Shown here piece after piece: positions 51,216-63,587 of a DNA stretch of 64,000 bases; the stretch's first letter is position 1, and every line of letters starts with the position of its first letter. The position numbers and the translations under genes are program-made. The stretch is taken from contig NZ_JANBVF010000019.1 in assembly GCF_024437655.1 (NCBI RefSeq), positions 32,644 through 96,643 of the forward strand, written 5' to 3'. The notes below the pieces were generated by a model. The model searched no databases, was not told the DNA's origin, and saw only the letters and a program-made list of their open reading frames with translations. This DNA is from Chitinolyticbacter albus (GTDB taxonomy: Bacteria > Pseudomonadota > Gammaproteobacteria > Burkholderiales > Chitinibacteraceae).

Positions 51216-52472
51216 ATGAAACACAGCACCATCGCGCTCTTGATCGGCGCGTTGTTCGCCAGCGGTGCCGCCCAGGCGGAGAAGACCCGCATCGAGTTCT
51301 GGACCATGAGCATGAAGCCGCGCTTCGAGGCCTACTTCCAGAACATCGAGAAGACCTACGAGGCGCAGAACCCCAACGTCGATATCGTCTGGACCGACCT
51401 GCCGTGGGATGTGATCCGCGCGAAGTTCACCGCCGCCGTCGCCGCAGGCCAGCCGCCCGCCCTTGCCAACCTCAACGTGCAGTGGGCGTACGACTACGCC
51501 CAGACCGGTGCCATCGTTCCGATCGATGCGCTGCTCGGCGCCGACCGTGGCGTCTACATGCCAGGCGCGCTGGCCGACGTGACCTGGGGCGGCAAGACCT
51601 ATGCCTTCCCCTGGTACAACTCGGCCGACGTGATGGCGGTGAACGGCGCCCTCTTCAAGAAGGCCGGGCTCGATCCCAAGCAGCCCATCGCCAACCTCTC
51701 TGCCCAGCTCAAGGTGGCGAAAACGATCCGGCAGAAGGCCGGCGTCGCCGGCCTCGCACCGCGCCTCGGTCGCGTGGAGAGCATCTTCCTGGGCGAGGGC
51801 CTGCCGGTGCTGGAAAACGGCAAGGCGGTGTTCAACTCACCACGCCACGTGGCGCTGCTGCGCGAGTTCGCCAACGCCTACAAAGCCGGCGCGCTGCTCA
51901 AGGACAACCTCTTTGCCGAGGACAACTTCCAGGTGTCGATCGCCGCCTACAACGGCGGGCGCCTTGCGATGCTGGAGACCACGCCACCCGCCATAGGCCG
52001 CGTGCGTGATGACGCCAAGGACATCTACGCGCAGACGGTGATGCTCCCGGTGCCACCCGGCGCCACCGGCGTGGTCAAGGGCGGCTGGCTGATGGACTTC
52101 GTGGTGCCGCGCGGCGTCGACGCCAAGCTCTTGCCCGAAGTCGGCAAGTTCGCGCGCTTCCTCACCAACGATGCCAACCAGCTGGCGTTCTCCAAGGATA
52201 CCGGCGGCACCTACCCCTCGACGCGCAAGGCCGCGCTCGATCCGTACTTCCAGCAATTGCCGGCCGATGCCGGCCCGCTGGAGCAGGCGCGGGCCATCGG
52301 CGCGAAGAACCTCACCAACGTGCGCACGCTGGCCATCCTCGGCATCGACGATCCGGCTCCGCTGACCAAGCGTTTGCGTGAGGAAACCGAGGCCGCCGTC
52401 ACCGGGCGCAAGGATGCCAAGGCCGCGCTCGATGCCGCCGTCGCGTTCTGGAATGCGCAGCTGAAGAAGTAA
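51216..52472 (+). CDS. Sugar ABC transporter substrate-binding protein 1
   Basis: The 418-residue periplasmic protein has a signal peptide (cleavage after SGAAQA) and an extracellular solute-binding family 1 fold: EFWTMSMKPRFEAYF, NPNVDIVWTDLPWD, YAFPWYNS and a C-terminal ATGGTYPS-like stretch (DTGGTYPSTRKA). It should deliver a sugar or oligosaccharide to the two permeases encoded next. It is a clear paralogue of the protein at 55966-57234. The ligand is not readable from sequence; an amino-sugar oligomer would suit a chitin degrader but is inference. Confidence 0.88.
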   Translation: MKHSTIALLIGALFASGAAQAEKTRIEFWTMSMKPRFEAYFQNIEKTYEAQNPNVDIVWTDLPWDVIRAKFTAAVAAGQPPALANLNVQWAYDYAQTGAIVPIDALLGADRGVYMPGALADVTWGGKTYAFPWYNSADVMAVNGALFKKAGLDPKQPIANLSAQLKVAKTIRQKAGVAGLAPRLGRVESIFLGEGLPVLENGKAVFNSPRHVALLREFANAYKAGALLKDNLFAEDNFQVSIAAYNGGRLAMLETTPPAIGRVRDDAKDIYAQTVMLPVPPGATGVVKGGWLMDFVVPRGVDAKLLPEVGKFARFLTNDANQLAFSKDTGGTYPSTRKAALDPYFQQLPADAGPLEQARAIGAKNLTNVRTLAILGIDDPAPLTKRLREETEAAVTGRKDAKAALDAAVAFWNAQLKK

Positions 52473-52549
52473 GGCGAAAAGCACATCCAAGCAGCAAACC
52501 GCCGCCGCCGGGTTTCTTTCAAATGCCTGGTGGCGGCCACGAGACCGCC

Positions 52550-53452
52550 ATGCCCACGTTCAAACACTATCCAAGCCGACACCACAGCTGGCGCGACGAC
52601 GCACGCGCCTGGCTGTTCCTCGCCCCCGCCCTCGTGGTGCTACTGCTGTTCGCCTTCTGGCCAGTGGGCCTCGGGGCGCTGCTCGCGTTCACCGAGGTGA
52701 ACATTTTCGACCTGACCGCCTCGCGCTGGGTCGGGCTCGCCAACTTCCAGGCGCTGTGGGACGACCCGACCTTCATCACCAGCGTCGTCAACACGCTGCT
52801 CTACCTTCTGGTGGTGCCGTTGATCCAGCTGGCCGCGCTGGCGCTGGCGGTGCTGGTGAACGCGCAACTGCCGGCGATGAAGCTGTTTCGCACCGCCTTC
52901 TTCGTGCCCGTGGTCACGTCGGTATCGGTGGTCGGGATCATGTGGGGCTGGATGTACAACGAGGACGGCATGCTCAACCAGCTGCTGGCCTGGCTGCGAC
53001 TGATCGATGCGCCGATCGGCTGGCTCAGCGACGAGCGCATCGCGCTCTTTGCCGTGATGTTCGTCACCTTCTGGCGTGGCCTGGGCTACTACATGGTGCT
53101 CTACATCGCCGGGCTGCAGGCGCTGCCGCAGGAAGTGGAGGAGGCGGCCATGCTCGACGGCGCCAATCGTTGGCAGCGCTTCTGGCGCATCACCGTGCCG
53201 ATGCTGCGGCCCACGCTGCTGCTGTGCACGCTGCTCTCCACGCTGGCGGCGATGAAAGCCTTCGAGGAAGTGGTGGTGATGACGGGCGGCGGCCCCATCG
53301 GCAGCACCTACACCCTCGCCTTCTACGCCTACGACCAGGGTTTCCGCGCCTTCGATTTCTCGCGCGCACTGGCCGCCAGCGCCGTGGTGTCGCTGATCGG
53401 CTTCGTGCTCGCCTGGATCAACTTCCGCTTCTTCCGCACCGAGGGCCGCTGA
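52550..53452 (+). CDS. Sugar ABC transporter permease (MalF-like)
   Basis: The 300-residue inner-membrane protein has six predicted membrane helices, beginning with AWLFLAPALVVLLLFAFW, and the EAA loop that docks the ATPase (EEAAMLDGANRWQRFWRI). It is of the short MalF/UgpA type without an extra periplasmic domain. ATG 52550 is preferred over ATG 52523, neither having a strong ribosome site. The next permease starts 1 nt after its stop. Confidence 0.9.
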   Translation: MPTFKHYPSRHHSWRDDARAWLFLAPALVVLLLFAFWPVGLGALLAFTEVNIFDLTASRWVGLANFQALWDDPTFITSVVNTLLYLLVVPLIQLAALALAVLVNAQLPAMKLFRTAFFVPVVTSVSVVGIMWGWMYNEDGMLNQLLAWLRLIDAPIGWLSDERIALFAVMFVTFWRGLGYYMVLYIAGLQALPQEVEEAAMLDGANRWQRFWRITVPMLRPTLLLCTLLSTLAAMKAFEEVVVMTGGGPIGSTYTLAFYAYDQGFRAFDFSRALAASAVVSLIGFVLAWINFRFFRTEGR

Positions 53453-53453
53453 C

Positions 53454-54281
53454 ATGCATCTCGTCCGCAAACTGTTGTTGTCCTGGGCGCCGCGCTACAG
53501 CCTGCTGCTGCTGGTGGCGCTGTTCACCACCTTCCCATTCCTCTGGACGCTCTCCACCGCGCTGGGCGACGCCGGCAACATCTATGCCTTCCCGCCACAG
53601 CTGTGGCCCGAAGCGCCGACGCTCAAGCATATCGACGAAGCGCGCCAGACCATTCCGCTCGACCGCTTCTTCTGGAATTCGGTGCTGATCAGCGGTGCCA
53701 CCGTCGCCGGCACGCTGGTTCTGGCGAGCCTTGCCGGCTATGCGCTGTCGGTGCTGCGTTTTCGCGGCCAGCGCCTGGTGTTCCTCGCCGTGCTCGCCAC
53801 GCTGATCCTGCCGTCCGAGCTCAACATCATCGTCAACTTCATCACGCTGACGATGCTCAAGCTCACCAACACGCACACCGGCGTGGTGCTGCCGCTCTTA
53901 GCCAACGCCTTCGGCATTTTCCTGCTGAAGCAGGCCTTCGATGAGATCCCGGCCGAGATCTTCGACGCCGCGCGCATTGACGGCGCCAGCGAATGGCAGC
54001 TGTTCTGGCGCGTCGCTCTGCCGCTCGCCGGCCCTGCGCTCGCCGCGCTCGCGATCTTCACGCTGGTCGCCACCTGGAACGCCTACATCTGGCCCGCCGT
54101 GGTGCTGCAAAGCCCCGACCAATACCCGCTCGCCGTCGGCGTGCTCTACCTCTCCGGCACCTTCGCCGCCAAAACCCGCGTCATCGCCGCCGGCACCGGG
54201 CTCACCATCCTGCCGGTGCTGATCCTGTTCCTGCTCGCCCAGCGCTACTTCATGCGCGGGCTGGATGGGGCGGTGAAATGA
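53454..54281 (+). CDS. Sugar ABC transporter permease (MalG-like)
   Basis: The 275-residue inner-membrane protein has six membrane helices and an EAA loop ([20 protein letters not shown]). It forms the transmembrane channel with the MalF-like partner encoded immediately upstream. The final [12 protein letters not shown] ending is typical of MalG/UgpE-type permeases. The ATPase gene is separated from it by a 350-base repeat-containing stretch. Confidence 0.92.
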
Positions 54282-54631
54282 CTACACCAAACCTCTTCGG
54301 ATCATGGCCGCGCCCAGCGATATGCAACGCAATAGCCTTTTCCGGCAAACAGCGGGGGGTCTCTCCCCGTTTCGCAGCGCCGAAGGAGCGGAGCGAGACC
54401 TCGGGCTCGCGACCGACTGAGGGCAGCCCGGAGGGCCGCAGGCGCGGTCACGCCAAAGCTTGGCGGCTTTGCCGCCTAGCGACGCGCGATGCAGAGCACG
54501 CCTTTCTTTGGTTCCTTTCTTTGGCGACGCAAAGAAAGGAACCCGTCCGCCGGGCGGAACCGGCACCTGAACAGCCGCGCCGCAGGCGCATAACACCGCC
54601 TTTCGATACACATACCGAGGAACACACCACC
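54282..54631 (+). other. Repeat-bearing gap inside the ABC operon
   Basis: A perfect 14-bp inverted repeat, GGTTCCTTTCTTTG (54510-54523), spacer GCGACG, CAAAGAAAGGAACC (54530-54543), is followed by GTCCGCCGGGCGGAACC. Upstream are the short palindromes GGCGGCTTTGCCGCC and GGAGCGGAGC-type GC-rich tracts. No real gene is present, though the ATPase frame stays open through it. It may be an inserted repeat element or an intercistronic processing or terminator site between permease and ATPase. Confidence 0.55.
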
Positions 54632-55723
<1,092 letters not shown>

Positions 55724-55965
55724 AATGAGCGAAAGCAGCGCGTTTCAAACAGGTTTCAACATGCTTGCTGCAAGCTTGGTCCTCGCCCGGCATCAATGCA
55801 ACGCCGGCATATTTGCGGATAATCAATGCCTTATGCAAAATCAGACCGTGACACGAGGCCGGCACCATGGCAGAATGCACCCCTAGGCTGACAGAACAAG
55901 CAAGCGCCCCTCGCCCCCGGCGCTCACGATCAGCCGCGCTATCACTATCCCCTTGGAGTTGTTGC

Positions 55966-57234
55966 ATGAAACCGACCCGTGCGATCCTGGTGGCCTGCGC
56001 GTTGCTCGCCAGCGCCTGCGTCCACGCCGAGAAAACGCGCATCGAATTCTGGACGATGAGCCTGAAACCCAAATTCGACGGCTATTTCCAGAAACTGGAG
56101 CAAGAGTACGAGCGCGCCAATCCCAATGTCGACATCGTCTGGGTCGATCACCCTTGGGACAAGATCCAGGCTCGCCTCTTGGGCGCCATCGCCATCTCGC
56201 AGCCGCCCGCCCTCGTCAACCTCAACGTGGAATGGGCGTACGATCTGGCGCAGCGCCACGACATCCTGCCGCTCAACAGCCTGCTCGGCGCCGACCGCGA
56301 TCGCTATATGCCGGGCGCGCTGGCCGACGTGACCTTCGACGGCAAAACCTACGCCTTCCCCTGGTACAACGGCGTATCGGTGCTGGCCGTGAACACCGAG
56401 CTGTTCCAGAAGGCCGGGCTCGACCCGAAGAAACCCTTGAAGACGCTGGACGAGCAGCTTGCTGCCGCGCGCGTGATCAAGGAGAAGACGGGCGTCGCCG
56501 GCTTCGCCCCCGAGCTCGGGCTGCCGGTGCGTATTTTCCTGGCCGAAGGCCTGCCGCTGACGCAAAACCGCCAGGCCGTGTTCAACTCGCCGCGCCACGT
56601 GGCGCTGCTGGAAAAATACGCCGCCGCCTACCGTGATGGCGCGCTGCCGCGCGAGAAGGGGCTGCTGTTTGCAGAGGACAACTTCCAGGCTGCCATCGGT
56701 GCCTACAACACCGGCAAGCTCGCCATGCTGGAAACCGCGCCGACCGCGCTCGGCCGCGTGAAGGACGAAGGCAAGGCGGTGTATGGCAAGACCGACGTGC
56801 TACCGGCGCCGCAAGGCCCGACCGGCGTGGTCAAGGGCGGCTGGCTGTTCAACTTCGCGGTGCCGCGCGGCGTGAACCCCAAGGCGCTGCCGGAAGTGGC
56901 CAAGTTCGCCAAGTTCCTGACCAACGACGCCAACCAGCTGGGCTTCTCCAAGGCCACCGGCGGCACCTACCCTTCGGTGCGCCAGGCCGCGCTCGACCCC
57001 TTCTTCCAGCAGCTGCCCGCCAACGCCGGCGCGGTGGAAAAGGCCCGCGCCATCGGCGCGCGTAACCTTGCCAACGTGCGTACGCTGACGCTCCTGGGTA
57101 TCGACGATCCGGAACCGCTCTACCGCAAGCTGCGCGAGGAAGTGGAATCGGCCGTCACCGGCCGCAAGAGCGCCAAGGCCGCGCTCGATGCGGCGACGGC
57201 GTTCTGGAACGCCAAGCTGGCCGGGGCGCGCTGA
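55966..57234 (+). CDS. Sugar ABC transporter substrate-binding protein 2
   Basis: The 422-residue protein is a paralogue of the one at 51216, sharing EKTRIEFWTMS, NPNVDIVW, QPPALVNLN-like, FNSPRHVALL, GVVKGGWL and FLTNDANQL. Its signal peptide ends CVHAEKT; LASACVHA could also be read as a lipobox (LASAC). GGAG 7 nt before ATG 55966 supports the start. Two binding proteins with one permease/ATPase set suggest two related ligands or different expression conditions. Confidence 0.88.
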   Translation: MKPTRAILVACALLASACVHAEKTRIEFWTMSLKPKFDGYFQKLEQEYERANPNVDIVWVDHPWDKIQARLLGAIAISQPPALVNLNVEWAYDLAQRHDILPLNSLLGADRDRYMPGALADVTFDGKTYAFPWYNGVSVLAVNTELFQKAGLDPKKPLKTLDEQLAAARVIKEKTGVAGFAPELGLPVRIFLAEGLPLTQNRQAVFNSPRHVALLEKYAAAYRDGALPREKGLLFAEDNFQAAIGAYNTGKLAMLETAPTALGRVKDEGKAVYGKTDVLPAPQGPTGVVKGGWLFNFAVPRGVNPKALPEVAKFAKFLTNDANQLGFSKATGGTYPSVRQAALDPFFQQLPANAGAVEKARAIGARNLANVRTLTLLGIDDPEPLYRKLREEVESAVTGRKSAKAALDAATAFWNAKLAGAR

Positions 57235-58737: not shown

Positions 58738-58855
58738 TTCGGTCTCAGCTTCGGGCCACGATGCGCTGACCGATGTATCGCCCAGGCAGTGGCATGGCGG
58801 CGCACCGGTCACGCAGGGTCGTGCTTGAACTTGCCAGCGGGTACAATTGCCCATC

Positions 58856-58875
58856 GGCCGTCCTTGTGGACGGCC
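58856..58875 (+). repeat. Perfect 8-bp hairpin before the PpiC-type gene
   Basis: GGCCGTCC-TTGT-GGACGGCC is followed by TTCTC and lies 16 nt before the ribosome site of the isomerase gene. It may be a terminator for the hydroxylase transcript or a structure in the isomerase leader. Confidence 0.5.
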
Positions 58876-58900
58876 TTCTCATGCCAGCACAGGAGCCCTC

Positions 58901-59626
58901 ATGGCCATTACCGTCAATGGCGTCGCGATCGACGAAGCCGAACTCAACGCCGCCATCGAACAAGCGCAAGACGCGCCGGGCGCCCGCGATGCGCTGACCC
59001 AGGAATTCATCCTGCGCGAGCTCTTGACGCAGGAAGCGCGCAAGCACGGCATCACCGCAGAGGACAGCGACGAGGCCATCAACACGCTGCTGCAGCAGGA
59101 AATCAAGGTAACACCGCCCACCGAGGCCGATGCGCGCGAGTACTACACCAACAATCCGCAAAGCTTCGTGCGCGGCGAGGAAGTTGAGGCCGCCCACATC
59201 CTGTTCTCGGTGGAAGACGCCACCAGCGCATCGCTGGTACGTGCCAAGGCCGAACGCGTGCTAGCCGAAGTGAAGACCGCGCCGTTCACCTTCAGCGCCG
59301 TGGCGCGCGAGCAATCGTCCTGCCCGTCCAAGGCGCAAGGCGGCGAGCTTGGCAGCTTCGGTCGCGGCCAGATGGTGCCCGAATTCGAGGCCGCCGCCTT
59401 TGCGCTGGGCGAGGGCGAAATCAGCCCCGAGCTCGTCGAAACCCAGTTCGGTTTCCACATCATCAAAGCCGGCAAGAAAAAGGCCGGCGAAGCGGTGGCG
59501 TTTGACGAAGTGAAGGATCGCCTGGCGCAGTTCCTGGTCGAAATGGCCCAGCGCCGTGCGATGAACGACTACCTGCAAGGCCTGGTCCAGGGCGCCAAGA
59601 TCGAAGGCTATACGCTACCGGCCTAA
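58901..59626 (+). CDS. PpiC/parvulin-type peptidyl-prolyl isomerase
   Basis: The 241-residue protein has an N-terminal helical chaperone-like part (DALTQEFILRELLTQEARKHGI) and a central parvulin domain (VEAAHILFSVEDA, SSCPSKAQGGELGSFGRGQMVPEFE, QFGFHIIKAGKK). It lacks a signal peptide, so unlike SurA or PrsA it should act in the cytoplasm, resembling NifM-type or PpiD-fragment proteins. AGGAG 5 nt before ATG 58901 decides the start over 58847. A strong terminator follows. Confidence 0.88.
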   Translation: MAITVNGVAIDEAELNAAIEQAQDAPGARDALTQEFILRELLTQEARKHGITAEDSDEAINTLLQQEIKVTPPTEADAREYYTNNPQSFVRGEEVEAAHILFSVEDATSASLVRAKAERVLAEVKTAPFTFSAVAREQSSCPSKAQGGELGSFGRGQMVPEFEAAAFALGEGEISPELVETQFGFHIIKAGKKKAGEAVAFDEVKDRLAQFLVEMAQRRAMNDYLQGLVQGAKIEGYTLPA

Positions 59627-59642
59627 TTGCCCCAGTACCCCC

Positions 59643-59671
59643 GAAAACACCCCGCATTGCGGGGTGTTTTC
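59643..59671 (+). terminator. Rho-independent terminator after the isomerase gene
   Basis: GAAAACACCCCGC-ATT-GCGGGGTGTTTTC is a perfect 13-bp stem whose 3' arm ends in TTTTC, 17 nt after the stop codon. Confidence 0.92.
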
Positions 59672-59713
59672 GTTGGGAGACGGGCCCGGCCAGCCCAATG
59701 CCCGGTGGTTGGA

Positions 59714-59816
59714 TCCGATATACAACCGACCCCAATAACGAATATCGGAAGCGAAGCGTAATTTTATCAAAAGGGACTAGGGTGCAAACAGTGGCATGAC
59801 CATGCCTCAGTCATGC
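59714..59816. promoter_or_regulatory. Two inverted repeats upstream of the holin-like cassette
   Basis: TCCGATAT (59714-59721) pairs with ATATCGGA (59742-59749) across 20 bases. Nearer the gene GCATGAC (59794-59800) pairs with GTCATGC (59810-59816) across 9. The intervening DNA is AT-rich (GTAATTTTATCAAAAGG). These could be regulator sites or leader structures controlling a potentially lethal cassette. No consensus sigma factor site was recognised. Confidence 0.4.
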
Positions 59817-59828
59817 TGGAGAGCCCTC

Positions 59829-60470
59829 ATGCCCCTACCCATACTCGGCGCCGTGCTCAGCACCATCGCGCCCCAGCTCGCCAAACGCGGCCTCGACCTC
59901 TTGAGCGGCATCTTTCGCGGCGCCCTCGATCAGGGCGCCGAGCAGGTGACCGAGCTGATCAAGGAAAAGACCGGCATCGACATCGCCGACGCCGCCGACG
60001 ACAAGCTCACCGACGAGCAGTGGCTCCAGCTCAAACAGTTTGAACTGGATAACCAGGCGCAGCTGATCACCTGGCGCCAGCAGATCGATGCGCACGAGCT
60101 GGAAATGGAAAAGTTGCGCACCGCCGATGTGCAGGACGCCCGCGCCACCGGCGGCAAGCGCGACGACAACGACGACCCGCTGGTGCGCCGCTTCACCTAC
60201 TACTACGCCTACCTGATTACCGCGCTGACCTTCGTCTTCATCGTGCTCGCCATCCTGCTGCCCTTCCTGTTCAACGCGAAGGAGCTCCCGCGTGACTCGG
60301 CGCAGATCATCAACACCGTGGTCGGCTTCCTGCTCGGCGTGGGCCTTTCCACCATCATCCAATACTTCTACGGCTCCAGCCGTGGCAGCAGCAACAAGCA
60401 GAAACAACTCGAAGAACTGACGCAACGCATGGCAGCCGGCGTCCGGCCCCACACCGAAGGAGGACACTAA
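59829..60470 (+). CDS. Holin-like membrane protein of a lysis-type cassette
   Basis: The 213-residue protein has an amphipathic N-terminal part (LSTIAPQLAKRGLDLLSGIF), a charged helical middle (residues 58-120), two membrane helices (about 126-148 and 160-181) and then YFYGSSRGSSNKQKQL, a YFGSS-GS-K ending I associate with phage holin-like proteins. It starts 2 genes of a tight cassette: the endolysin gene begins 1 nt after its stop. GGAGAG before ATG 59829 supports the start. Assignment as a holin rests on topology and context. Confidence 0.65.
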   Translation: MPLPILGAVLSTIAPQLAKRGLDLLSGIFRGALDQGAEQVTELIKEKTGIDIADAADDKLTDEQWLQLKQFELDNQAQLITWRQQIDAHELEMEKLRTADVQDARATGGKRDDNDDPLVRRFTYYYAYLITALTFVFIVLAILLPFLFNAKELPRDSAQIINTVVGFLLGVGLSTIIQYFYGSSRGSSNKQKQLEELTQRMAAGVRPHTEGGH

Positions 60471-60471
60471 G

Positions 60472-61701
60472 ATGGGACTCAACCGCGAGCAGGCCGTGTT
60501 TCTACAACACGTGGCCGAGCTGATCCGCAAGGCGCCGGAGCTCGGCCTCACGCTCACCGGCGGCGAACTCTACCGCACGCCTGAGCAACAGGCGCTGCAC
60601 ATCAAGAACGGCCGCAGCAAGACCATGAACAGCCAGCACCTCAAGCGGCTGGCCATCGACCTCAACTTCTTCGAAACCACGCCGGACGGCAAGCTCAACC
60701 TGGTCCAGGACAGCGACGCGGTACGCCAACTCGGCGCGTTCTGGGAAAGCCTGGACACCGCCAATCGCTGGGGCGGCAATTGGCAAAGCTTCAAGGACGC
60801 ACCGCATTTCGAGCGGCGCGAGGGCACGCTGGCCGACGCCACCTCCGAGGCAGCCCGGCCCACCGCCACGTCGACCGTCGTGGAAATCCCCGCTCCACCC
60901 ACGCGGGGCCTGGCACTGCTGGGCGACACCGTGGGCTTTCGTGCCCGCAATCTGCGCGACGATGTCGAGACCGTGCAGCGCCTCGTCAACCTGAATGTCA
61001 GCCGCATCGGGCTCACCGTGCCGCTGCAGTGCGACGGCATCATCGGCGAGAAGACCATGGCGGCACTGCGCACCTTTCGCAGCAAGGTGCTAGGTGTCGA
61101 CGAAGCCGACCTCGTGCTCAAGCCGCGCGACGCCACGCTGGGCGCCTTGTGCCTGGCGCTGCCCAAGGCACTCGATAACGCGCTGTGCGGCCTGTTGTAC
61201 CTGCATGCCGCCGATGCGGTCGTCACGGCGTTTGCCGGCCCCATCGCCGACACCATGACGGCGTACGACATCAATACGCCGCTACGCCAAGCGCATTTCC
61301 TGTCCCAGATCGGCCACGAGAGCGGCGAGTTGCGCTTTCGCGAGGAACTCGCCAGCGGCGCGGCCTACGAAGGGCGGCGCGACCTCGGCAACACCCAGCC
61401 GGGCGACGGGGTGCGCTACAAGGGCCGCGGCCTGATCCAGCTGACCGGCCGCGCCAACTACGGCGACTATGCGCGCACCAACCGCTTTGGCACCGACGTG
61501 CTGGCCAACCCCGCGCTGGTTGCCAGCGACGATGCGCTCACGGTCGACGTCGCCGGCTGGTACTGGGACAAGCGCCGTATCAACATGCTGGCCGACCGCG
61601 ACGATGTCGAAGCGGTGACCCGCGCCATCAACGGTGGCCTCAACGGCCTTTCCGATCGCAAGCGGTTGCTGACACGGGCGCGCACGCTGCTAGGGGCCTA
61701 G
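60472..61701 (+). CDS. Dual-domain endolysin: M15-like peptidase and GH19 muramidase/chitinase
   Basis: The 409-residue protein lacks a signal peptide. Residues 1-120 resemble M15C peptidases (GGELYRTPEQQ; zinc-binding H56-x6-D63 in HLKRLAIDLNFF; a later His in KDAPHFER). Residues about 145-215 look like a peptidoglycan-binding segment (DDVETVQRLVNLN, CDGIIGEKTMAALRTFR). Residues about 240-409 form a GH19 domain with catalytic Glu in GHESGELRFREE and GRGLIQLTGRANY. It could cut both peptide and glycan bonds of the wall, or chitin. Release would need the holin-like partner encoded directly upstream. Confidence 0.85.
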   Translation: MGLNREQAVFLQHVAELIRKAPELGLTLTGGELYRTPEQQALHIKNGRSKTMNSQHLKRLAIDLNFFETTPDGKLNLVQDSDAVRQLGAFWESLDTANRWGGNWQSFKDAPHFERREGTLADATSEAARPTATSTVVEIPAPPTRGLALLGDTVGFRARNLRDDVETVQRLVNLNVSRIGLTVPLQCDGIIGEKTMAALRTFRSKVLGVDEADLVLKPRDATLGALCLALPKALDNALCGLLYLHAADAVVTAFAGPIADTMTAYDINTPLRQAHFLSQIGHESGELRFREELASGAAYEGRRDLGNTQPGDGVRYKGRGLIQLTGRANYGDYARTNRFGTDVLANPALVASDDALTVDVAGWYWDKRRINMLADRDDVEAVTRAINGGLNGLSDRKRLLTRARTLLGA

Positions 61702-61703
61702 CA

Positions 61704-62510
61704 ATGGCCGAAGAGCGGGACCGCCCGGTCGGCCACTGGCTGGATCTCTCCACCAAGGCCATCTCCCTGATCTCGCTCGCCATCGCGGCTTACGCGGCCT
61801 ATCGCGCGCTGCCGCTGGACCAGGAAATCGCCGAACTCAATCGCGCGGCCAAGGAGCAGGAACGCAAGACGACCGAGATCGATAATGCGCTCAAGCTGGC
61901 CCGTGCGGACCTGGAACGCGCCGAATCCGAGCGGCGGCTGACGCTGGAGCTCTACAAGGAAGTGCAGGCGGTGCTGGCGCTCGATCACAAGGATCCGCGC
62001 CGCGAGGACGCGGTGCGCGTGCTGGTCGAATCGCTGGCCGATGATCCGTTCCGCTGGAAACTGCTGCAGGCGCTGGCGGTGGGCGCGTCCAGCCAGGAAG
62101 TGCAACGCAAAGCGGGTTCCACCGCCAGTTTCTATCGCGAGGAATCGGTCGTTCCCGCCGCCCCCGCCGCGCCTGCGGCCAGGCCCGAGGCGAAAACCAG
62201 TGCCTACGCCGGCTACAATATCGACCTATTCCATTGCGAGCGGCGCGCCGCCGCCGGCAAGGCCGAAGCCGCATCGGCCCTGACCTTGCGCCCCAAGGCG
62301 GGAGCCGGGCGCTGGCGCATTCGTCTGTTGCCCGACGAAATCAACCTGCAACCTGGCTACCAGGTCAGCGGCCGGCTGATCCGGCACAACGCCGACGAAA
62401 CCGTGGCCGCGAGGCAGTTGGCCGATGCGCTGGCCGGACAAGGTCTCCCCGTCCAACTGGCACTGATTGCCTATCCCACCCCGCATTATTTGAGCATTTT
62501 CTTCTGTTAG
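61704..62510 (+). CDS. Membrane-anchored coiled-coil protein, spanin-like
   Basis: The 268-residue protein has one N-terminal membrane helix (AISLISLAIAAYAAYRAL) followed by a long coiled coil (EIAELNRAAKEQERKTTEIDN onward, to about residue 90). An Ala/Pro linker near 150 comes next, then a C-terminal globular domain (GYNIDLFHCERRAA, PVQLALIAYPTPHYLSIFFC). The N-terminal half has the layout of a phage inner-membrane spanin (Rz). The extra C-terminal domain is unusual for spanins and unrecognised. It starts 2 nt after the endolysin stop, so the three genes form one cassette. Confidence 0.65.
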   Translation: MAEERDRPVGHWLDLSTKAISLISLAIAAYAAYRALPLDQEIAELNRAAKEQERKTTEIDNALKLARADLERAESERRLTLELYKEVQAVLALDHKDPRREDAVRVLVESLADDPFRWKLLQALAVGASSQEVQRKAGSTASFYREESVVPAAPAAPAARPEAKTSAYAGYNIDLFHCERRAAAGKAEAASALTLRPKAGAGRWRIRLLPDEINLQPGYQVSGRLIRHNADETVAARQLADALAGQGLPVQLALIAYPTPHYLSIFFC

Positions 62511-62653
62511 TTAAATTCTTTAGGCTTTAAAGAAATAAAAGAGCGGCGTACACTGCCTGGGCAGCCGACCATCCGGAGCCGGAATTTCAACGGTTCCGCT
62601 TGAATAAGCCACTCCGTGCAACCATGTGTGAATGCGTAACCCTCAGGCTCACC

Positions 62654-63340
62654 ATGTCCCACCCGACCGCTCCCCTCTCCGACGATCAACGCCTCGCTGC
62701 TGCTGGCCATGGCGTGCTTTGCGCCCGCGATGGCGAGCTGTTGGCTGACAAGGTCGCCACCGCGCGGCTGCCGACGCGGCACGGCGAATTCGTCTCGCAC
62801 GTCTATCGTGCGCGGCTCGACGGTGTCGAACACGTCGCGCTGGTGAAGGGCGATGTCTCGGGTGACACCCCGGTGCTGGTGCGGCTGCATTCCGAATGCC
62901 TGACCGGCGATGTGTTCGGCTCCTTGCGCTGCGACTGCGGCGAGCAGCTGGAGCTGGCGCTCGCCCGGATCGAGCATGAAGGGCGCGGTGTGCTGCTCTA
63001 CCTGCGCGGCCAGGAGGGGCGCGGCATCGGCATCACCCACAAGATCCGCGCCTACGCGCTGCAGGACGAAGGGCTCGACACGGTCGAAGCCAATGCCGCG
63101 CAAGGCCTGCCGATCGATGCGCGCAGTTACGAGGCCGCAGCGGCCATCCTGCGCGACCTCGGTGTGCGCTCCGTCCGGCTGATGAGCAACAATCCGAGAA
63201 AGCTCGCCGCGCTGGAAGCCGCCGGCATCACGATGGCCCGGCGCGAAGCGCACGAGATTGCCGCCAATCATGAGAACCGTGTCTACCTGGAAACCAAGCG
63301 CAGCAAGCTTGGCCACCTGCTGCGGCTGGAAAAGAACTGA
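62654..63340 (+). CDS. ribA: GTP cyclohydrolase II
   Basis: RibA opens GTP to 2,5-diamino-6-ribosylamino-pyrimidinone phosphate, the first step of riboflavin synthesis. The 228-residue protein has the zinc site Cys82, Cys93, Cys95 ([16 protein letters not shown]), the GTP-binding [22 protein letters not shown] and the [11 protein letters not shown] segment. It is the stand-alone form without a RibB domain. ATG 62654 is chosen over 62600 and 62624. A 7-bp hairpin at 62516-62534 lies in the preceding gap. Confidence 0.94.
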
Positions 63341-63383: not shown

Positions 63384-63587
63384 TCAGCCTGTGGGGTTCT
63401 GGTACTGATCGGTTCTGTTGTCCGTCCGCCCGGTCAATAGAGTCACCGTCGGCGGCAGGGACGCATAGGTCCTGAACCGCTTGTTGCATTCCGGACAGTA
63501 GTAGTCTTCATACTCGTTGTGCCCTTCCTGCTGGGTGTCCATCACCCGCATCGTTGCGCCGCAGTAGTCGCAAGTCTTTTCAAACAT
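63384..63587 (-). CDS. Small zinc-ribbon protein
   Basis: The 67-residue product has CDYC (residues 6-9) and CPEC (31-34), two CxxC knuckles of a zinc ribbon, separated by a Gln/Glu-rich loop. The C-terminal part is polar. Such proteins often bind nucleic acids or serve as assembly factors; the role here is unknown. GGAAAGGG before ATG 63587 is a good ribosome site. It converges on ribA. Confidence 0.7.
   Translation of the reverse strand: MFEKTCDYCGATMRVMDTQQEGHNEYEDYYCPECNKRFRTYASLPPTVTLLTGRTDNRTDQYQNPTG

Follow-up and report, generated by a model that had tools for sequence, protein, structure and literature searches.

Whether a bacterial lysis cassette can do without recognisable spanins is the question raised by three genes in a 64,000-nucleotide stretch of Chitinolyticbacter albus DNA (contig NZ_JANBVF010000019.1, positions 32,644 to 96,643; hereafter the window), which follow each other on the + strand with intergenic gaps of 1 nucleotide (nt) between genes 1 and 2 and 2 nt between genes 2 and 3 (lengths in amino acids, aa):

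59829..60470, + strand: gene 1, member of the phrog_1544 family and likely holin (213 aa, with two transmembrane helices predicted)
60472..61701, + strand: gene 2, leaderless dual-domain endolysin (409 aa; M15 L-Ala-D-Glu-type peptidase, weak peptidoglycan-binding-like segment and GH19)
61704..62510, + strand: gene 3, predicted membrane-anchored envelope protein (268 aa, LytR_C-like domain 170-268)

Holin/endolysin/spanin clusters standing outside phages are known as type 10 secretion systems (T10SS), in which proteins are freed by lysis of a subpopulation and passage of the outer membrane is explained through spanins (PMC10847048). The explanation that we prefer, with a probability of about one half, is that the three genes work like such a secretion/lysis cassette, the third component of which is likely not a spanin. 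A cassette kept under selection without recognisable spanins, and including a likely wall-associated protein, would represent a second solution to the outer-membrane problem and would make the spanin requirement testable. The layout proposed in an initial annotation of the DNA, that is, three nearly abutting genes for a YFYGSSRGS-type membrane protein, a leaderless M15+GH19 hydrolase and a third, membrane-anchored protein, agrees with the coordinates, the Pfam matches and the hydropathy profiles. No description of the Chitinolyticbacter cassette was seen in the open-access literature; subscription papers lay outside this search, and an earlier description may exist.

Conservation of the cassette

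The cassette sits between a PpiC-type isomerase gene (5') and ribA/moaA (3'). In C. meiyuanensis (G001), the one genome of the same genus in the comparison, the same trio occupies the same place, in the order moaA, ribA, gene 3, gene 2, gene 1, PpiC, sugar ABC transporter; genes 2 and 3 lie on the same strand, separated by 2 nt, in both genomes. The three genes are intact and under purifying selection: no internal stop is present in the trio when the two genomes are compared, and the pairwise ratios of nonsynonymous to synonymous substitution rates (dN/dS; Nei-Gojobori, two genomes) are 0.10, 0.15 and 0.27 for genes 1, 2 and 3, to be read beside 0.15 for PpiC, 0.06 for ribA and 0.06 for the solute-binding protein in the flanks, the gene 3 proteins having diverged by 30%. 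A Pfam scan of ten neighbours (nine from the C. meiyuanensis locus and one from the window) revealed no phage gene; all ten belong to non-phage families, namely those of 2OG-Fe(II) oxygenases, PpiC, GTP cyclohydrolase II, molybdenum-cofactor proteins and solute-binding/ABC transport proteins. The term domesticated, applied to the cassette from the start, fits because the genes stand outside prophages in both genomes that bear the trio, with non-phage flanks, and are kept by selection.

The dual-domain endolysin

Gene 2 is predicted to encode an enzyme that cuts the wall in two ways, in its stem peptides by means of the M15 domain and in its glycan strands by means of the GH19 domain. Its product matches Peptidase_M15_4 (PF13539; E 2.6e-11, 44.4 bits against a cut-off of 25) and Glyco_hydro_19 (PF00182; E 6.4e-9, 36.4 bits against a cut-off of 25.5), together with a peptidoglycan-binding-like segment that matches PF09374 below cut-off; sequence matches in the PDB comprise GH19 endolysins (9ms7, E 4e-35), M15C peptidases and, for the M15 part, ChiX (5opz, E 0.0014). 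Residues H56, D63 and H112, which we take to be the zinc ligands of the M15 domain, and E283 and E292, presumably the catalytic glutamates of the GH19 domain, are invariant in 15 of 15 aligned proteins (the window's own and 14 of the other 119 homologues listed); by profile match and conserved zinc-site residues the protein belongs with the M15 L-alanyl-D-glutamate peptidases, and by profile match and conserved catalytic glutamates with GH19. The lone 19-residue stretch exceeding a hydropathy of 1.6 is internal (237-255), and the earlier description of a leaderless lysin with two catalytic domains is thus borne out, with an M15 part resembling that of the Serratia system.

Homologues are numerous (4359 at E 1e-3 in the protein collection, with 7997 candidates scored), and nearly all of the 120 listed among these 4359 carry both Pfam domains; of 50,697 phages searched, 2127 records match the protein and none covers 80% of it. 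Two GH19 relatives (L045, L046), next to which tail genes were recognised by eye, were taken for ordinary prophage lysins and not considered further.

The holin candidate

The product of gene 1 is likely a holin, linked to a holin family through its relatives only. It carries the motif YFYGSSRGS and two hydrophobic segments, with peaks near residues 129-147 and 160-178, and it matches phrog_1544, a family of unknown function (E 1.1e-14); phrog_3427, annotated as 'holin', is not among its matches even at E 1, and a Pfam search with the protein gave no family above cut-off, nor did the same search with all seven gene 1-like proteins (the window's and six relatives). Two of the seven, in loci L091 and L092, match both phrog_1544 and phrog_3427, the other five lacking phrog_3427. 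The holin assignment made in the initial annotation is supported through these two relatives only, the window protein itself lacking the phrog_3427 match. An alternative in-frame ATG is present at 59796; the aligned family nevertheless begins at 59829.

In the protein collections 339 homologues were retrieved at E 1e-3, the protein itself included, whereas close relatives are rarer in the sampled genomes: a match was obtained in 6 of the 369 genomes at class level and in 10 of the 399 at order level, only the window's own match being strong. Matches were also found in 122 of the 50,697 phage records, all from Vibrio phages and with identities below 60%, and weakly in two plasmid records. When used as a single query against IMG/VR the protein returned 11 stretches and no relative, the family alignment returned 35 loci (the closest 44% identical), and the structure model had no BFVD match with E <=0.001. 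The closest viral relative (L053 5954-6583, and L054) is located on a phage contig and is followed by a 295-aa protein that is not a recognised lysin. In Vibrio phage VP882 the homologue gp71 (32% identical) lies immediately 3' of the endolysin gene gp70 (GH108).

Fourteen gene 1-like loci were examined (L042, L043, L048, L050, L053, L054, L055, L056, L071 and L089-L093), taken from the phage records (2 of 122), from IMG/VR (5 of 35 loci) and from the class-level (2 of 5) and order-level (5 of 11) loci, the own locus being excluded; genes were called with a simple script, whose choices at two further loci, L014 and L044, were antisense frames. A wall hydrolase adjoins the gene 1 relative in seven of the fourteen, of M15 type in L055, L071, L089 and L090 and of GH108 type in L042, L091 and L092. 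Loci L055 and L071 had been chosen for their tblastn match to gene 2, which no other IMG/VR locus among the 35 shows, and the M15 call in L055 rests on this match (E 2.6e-20), Pfam giving none at E 1e-3; among the remaining loci, L053 equals L054 in its genes, the neighbours in L043 are unnamed, and L050 and L093 are without gene calls. In two order-level genomes (L091 851-1902 and L092 1501-2653) the gene 1-like membrane protein adjoins the GH108 lysin, and no phage gene was noticed by eye in the 3.4 kb read; these may be further stand-alone lysis pairs.

A comparison of the homologue lists by the length of the longest contig per cluster (119 of 339 gene 1 homologues against 120 of 4359 gene 2 homologues) gave 30 coinciding lengths, one of which belongs to the window's own contig; with one list displaced by 1-50 positions the mean was 0.9 and the maximum 4. 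In a KSB1 genome, the two homologues bear the consecutive locus tags EH223_04415/04420. The gene 3 list coincides twice with that of gene 1 and once with that of gene 2, in all cases in Chitinolyticbacter. In view of these coincidences and of the KSB1 tags, genes 1 and 2, both likely phage-derived, look like a recurrent, travelling pair, and gene 3 looks like an addition to it, found here in one genus; the apparent recurrence of the pair, KSB1 included, suggests that non-phage lysin-holin pairs reach well beyond the enterobacterial T10SS.

The third component

For the gene 3 protein, a location in the inner membrane is predicted. A hydrophobic segment at about 20-38, the peak of which is modest (1.54, a value of 1.6 being surpassed in 27 of the 31 family members aligned), is followed by a helix to residue 92, a conserved helical region (98-148), a P/A-rich linker and the LytR_C-like domain; in the predicted structure the long helix spans 9-92, and residues 172-267 form an alpha/beta domain of their own at the C-terminus. 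Only two cysteines are present (178 and 268), both invariant in the family. The additional C-terminal domain noticed in the initial annotation is real, and in the model its fold, though not its sequence, appears to resemble that of LytR_C in the mycobacterial proteins VirR and Cei. Assignment to LytR_C by sequence was tried and set aside: PF13399 gave no match to the window protein at E 1 and no gene 3-family match at E 1e-3 in four genomes that all hold the family (G000, G001, G003, G013), it is absent among 25 of the 30 Pfam families listed for 31 family members, and the hhalign comparison of the family with LytR_C is not significant (P 0.013).

Of the hallmarks of an i-spanin, an N-terminal membrane anchor and a periplasmic coiled coil, what is seen here is the anchor peak of 1.54 and the predicted helix 9-92. 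The same annotation had called this protein spanin-like, a proposal that found no support in the searches: the protein is likely not a spanin, having no match in PHROG at E 1e-3, none by tblastn in the phage records at E 0.1 and none in BFVD with E <=0.001, and a narrow two-pattern scan of IMG/VR matched 48 stretches, none of them a relative. A lipobox scan of positions 58800-62800 on both strands, aimed at an o-spanin gene, returned ten rows, two on the + strand ahead of the PpiC gene (58825, 58831) and eight antisense (60121-62122), none of which was judged plausible. The genomic contexts of the family point the same way, since in six of the eight loci read outside the genus (the other 32 homologues being left out) no wall-active gene was seen directly 5' of the gene 3 relative; in the other two, an N-acetylmuramidase (PF11860; G022) and a PG_binding_1 protein (G642) precede it. 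One match was found in the plasmid records. The scan of genome contigs yielded a single relative, a copy from Candidatus Nitrotoga (L006 7793-8567), which is split into two reading frames and stands near transposase-like genes (by eye).

The upstream spacer and the neighbourhood

59627..59828, + strand: spacer 5' of gene 1, with a G+C-rich hairpin past the PpiC gene (by eye) and then a block at about 59735-59786 common with C. meiyuanensis

The common block comes from the alignment of the C. albus and C. meiyuanensis spacers. The cassette is presumed to have its own promoter in this spacer; such a promoter is inferred only, because a consensus scan of 59627..59828 gave neither promoter nor terminator on the + strand, and two promoter-like sites on the - strand. 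Control by the SOS response was considered and rejected, LexA-like sites (at most one mismatch) numbering 11 in the window against 17 expected, with none in the spacer.

The genome amounts to 3.9 Mb, and the right flank of the cassette measures only about 1.5 kb because the window and contig C11 end together. No chitinase, regulator, cargo or sensor gene was recognised beside the cassette in the neighbourhood scan. On its 5' side (51216-57234) one ABC transporter set is bracketed by a gene at 51216-52472 and another at 55966-57234, both for sugar solute-binding proteins and similar to each other, an order that recurs in C. meiyuanensis (L013); between ribA and moaA, on the - strand at 63384-63587, an open reading frame of 67 aa with CxxC pairs appears zinc-ribbon-like by eye and has a low coding score.

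Proposed mechanism and alternative explanations

Once triggered, the gene 1 holin would let the leaderless gene 2 enzyme through the inner membrane, and this enzyme, as predicted from its intact catalytic residues, would cut both stem peptides and glycan strands. The gene 3 protein would be held by its anchor in the inner membrane, and its LytR_C-like domain would face the periplasm and touch the wall or the wall enzymes; in this way the protein may stand in for an i-spanin/o-spanin pair in shaping the failure of the envelope, whether by blebbing, by vesicles or by bursting. A minority of cells would thus lyse, freeing periplasmic and cytosolic enzymes, as has been shown for the T10SS of Serratia and Yersinia. 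A more specific version, which we put forward only tentatively and hold to be doubtful, is that a VirR-like bacterial wall protein has replaced the spanins, gene 3 sensing or gripping the opening wall and steering the cell toward vesiculation and protein release rather than membrane fusion driven by spanins. If true, this would be, to our knowledge, the first known lysis cassette with a LytR_C-type third component. The solo LytR_C proteins VirR and Rv2700 have effects on the integrity of the wall and on vesicle formation (PMC11832169).

The role of the cassette in chitinase export, which the initial annotation found attractive, has to be considered in the light of a genome with 19 GH18 matches and 4 matches to GH19, among which is the gene 2 lysin. 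Nineteen of these 23 matches, corresponding to 18 distinct frames, were examined (two matches at contig edges, one broken frame and the lysin being excluded), and 17 of the 18 frames have a signal-like N-terminus in a simple hydropathy test on the best-scoring start. Since the Serratia chitinases cross the inner membrane via Sec (PMC9527704), this pattern speaks neither for nor against an export role of the cassette. The exception, a 363-aa GH18 frame (contig C84:1922-2932; L103), is without a signal-like N-terminus and is a candidate cargo for lysis-dependent release.

It has to be asked whether genes 1 and 2 act without lysis, a little lysin crossing the membrane and loosening the wall for Sec-exported chitinases while the gene 3 protein restrains the enzyme. 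The ChiX-like M15 domain, the strongly chitinolytic genome and the signal-like chitinase frames, which would take Sec first, are all compatible with such a device, and non-lytic export by T10SS is favoured in a review (PMC9527704); we regard it as rather unlikely here, given that neither chitinase nor regulator gene was recognised in the neighbourhood and that the model is contradicted for Serratia itself (PMC10847048). Somewhat less probable still is that lysis and release are the business of genes 1 and 2 alone, gene 3 being a gene of envelope homeostasis that has no relation to them beyond the shared operon: its faster evolution (dN/dS 0.27), the contexts of its relatives in six of eight other loci and the confinement of its list coincidences to Chitinolyticbacter fit this explanation, against which stand the 2-nt gap and common strand kept in both Chitinolyticbacter genomes and the wall-active gene that again precedes it in two other genomes (G022, G642).

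It is improbable that the cassette is what remains of phage lysis genes, either in decay or captured recently, and has no host function, even though gene 1 is of phage type and so is each lysin domain taken singly: the trio has no stops, its dN/dS is 0.10-0.27 compared to 0.15 for the flanking PpiC, synteny is kept despite the divergence of gene 3, no phage record holds the whole lysin or gene 3, and the ten scanned neighbours include no phage gene. In principle, a chromosome that retains lysis genes of phages could also use them for abortive infection, with an infecting phage triggering the holin and early self-lysis; this is very improbable, no sensor gene being recognised beside the cassette and PADLOC-DB, queried with all three proteins, giving no match at E 1, a result on which the identification of the cassette as a defence system was abandoned.

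Comparison with known systems

The preferred explanation, a cassette working like a T10SS whose third component is probably something other than a spanin, places the locus beside the Serratia ChiWXYZ and Yersinia YenLC systems, which likewise join holin-type and M15-type hydrolase genes outside prophages, among essential or housekeeping genes (PMC10847048). The Chitinolyticbacter cassette, too, has a holin-type gene (through relatives only) adjoining a gene for a leaderless peptidoglycan hydrolase outside a prophage; it differs in the fusion of GH19 to the M15 enzyme, in having no recognised cargo or regulator alongside, and in its third gene, which is of another family with no phage match, the i-spanin/o-spanin pair of the archetype not being found. 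The gp70-gp71 pair of Vibrio phage VP882 is similar in that the gene 1 homologue directly follows the endolysin, and this phage is placed in the section on spanin-less phages in PMC6139136; its endolysin is however of GH108 and not of M15+GH19 type, and gene 3 has no match in phage records. The GH19 phage endolysins (PWe2, mycobacteriophage LysA) share the GH19 domain with gene 2, whereas the combined M15+GH19 protein is not covered to 80% by any phage record. With respect to VirR (Rv0431) and Cei (Rv2700), to which it has no significant sequence relation, the gene 3 family is distinguished by a long helical region, an invariant cysteine pair, a Gram-negative host and a lysin as neighbour.
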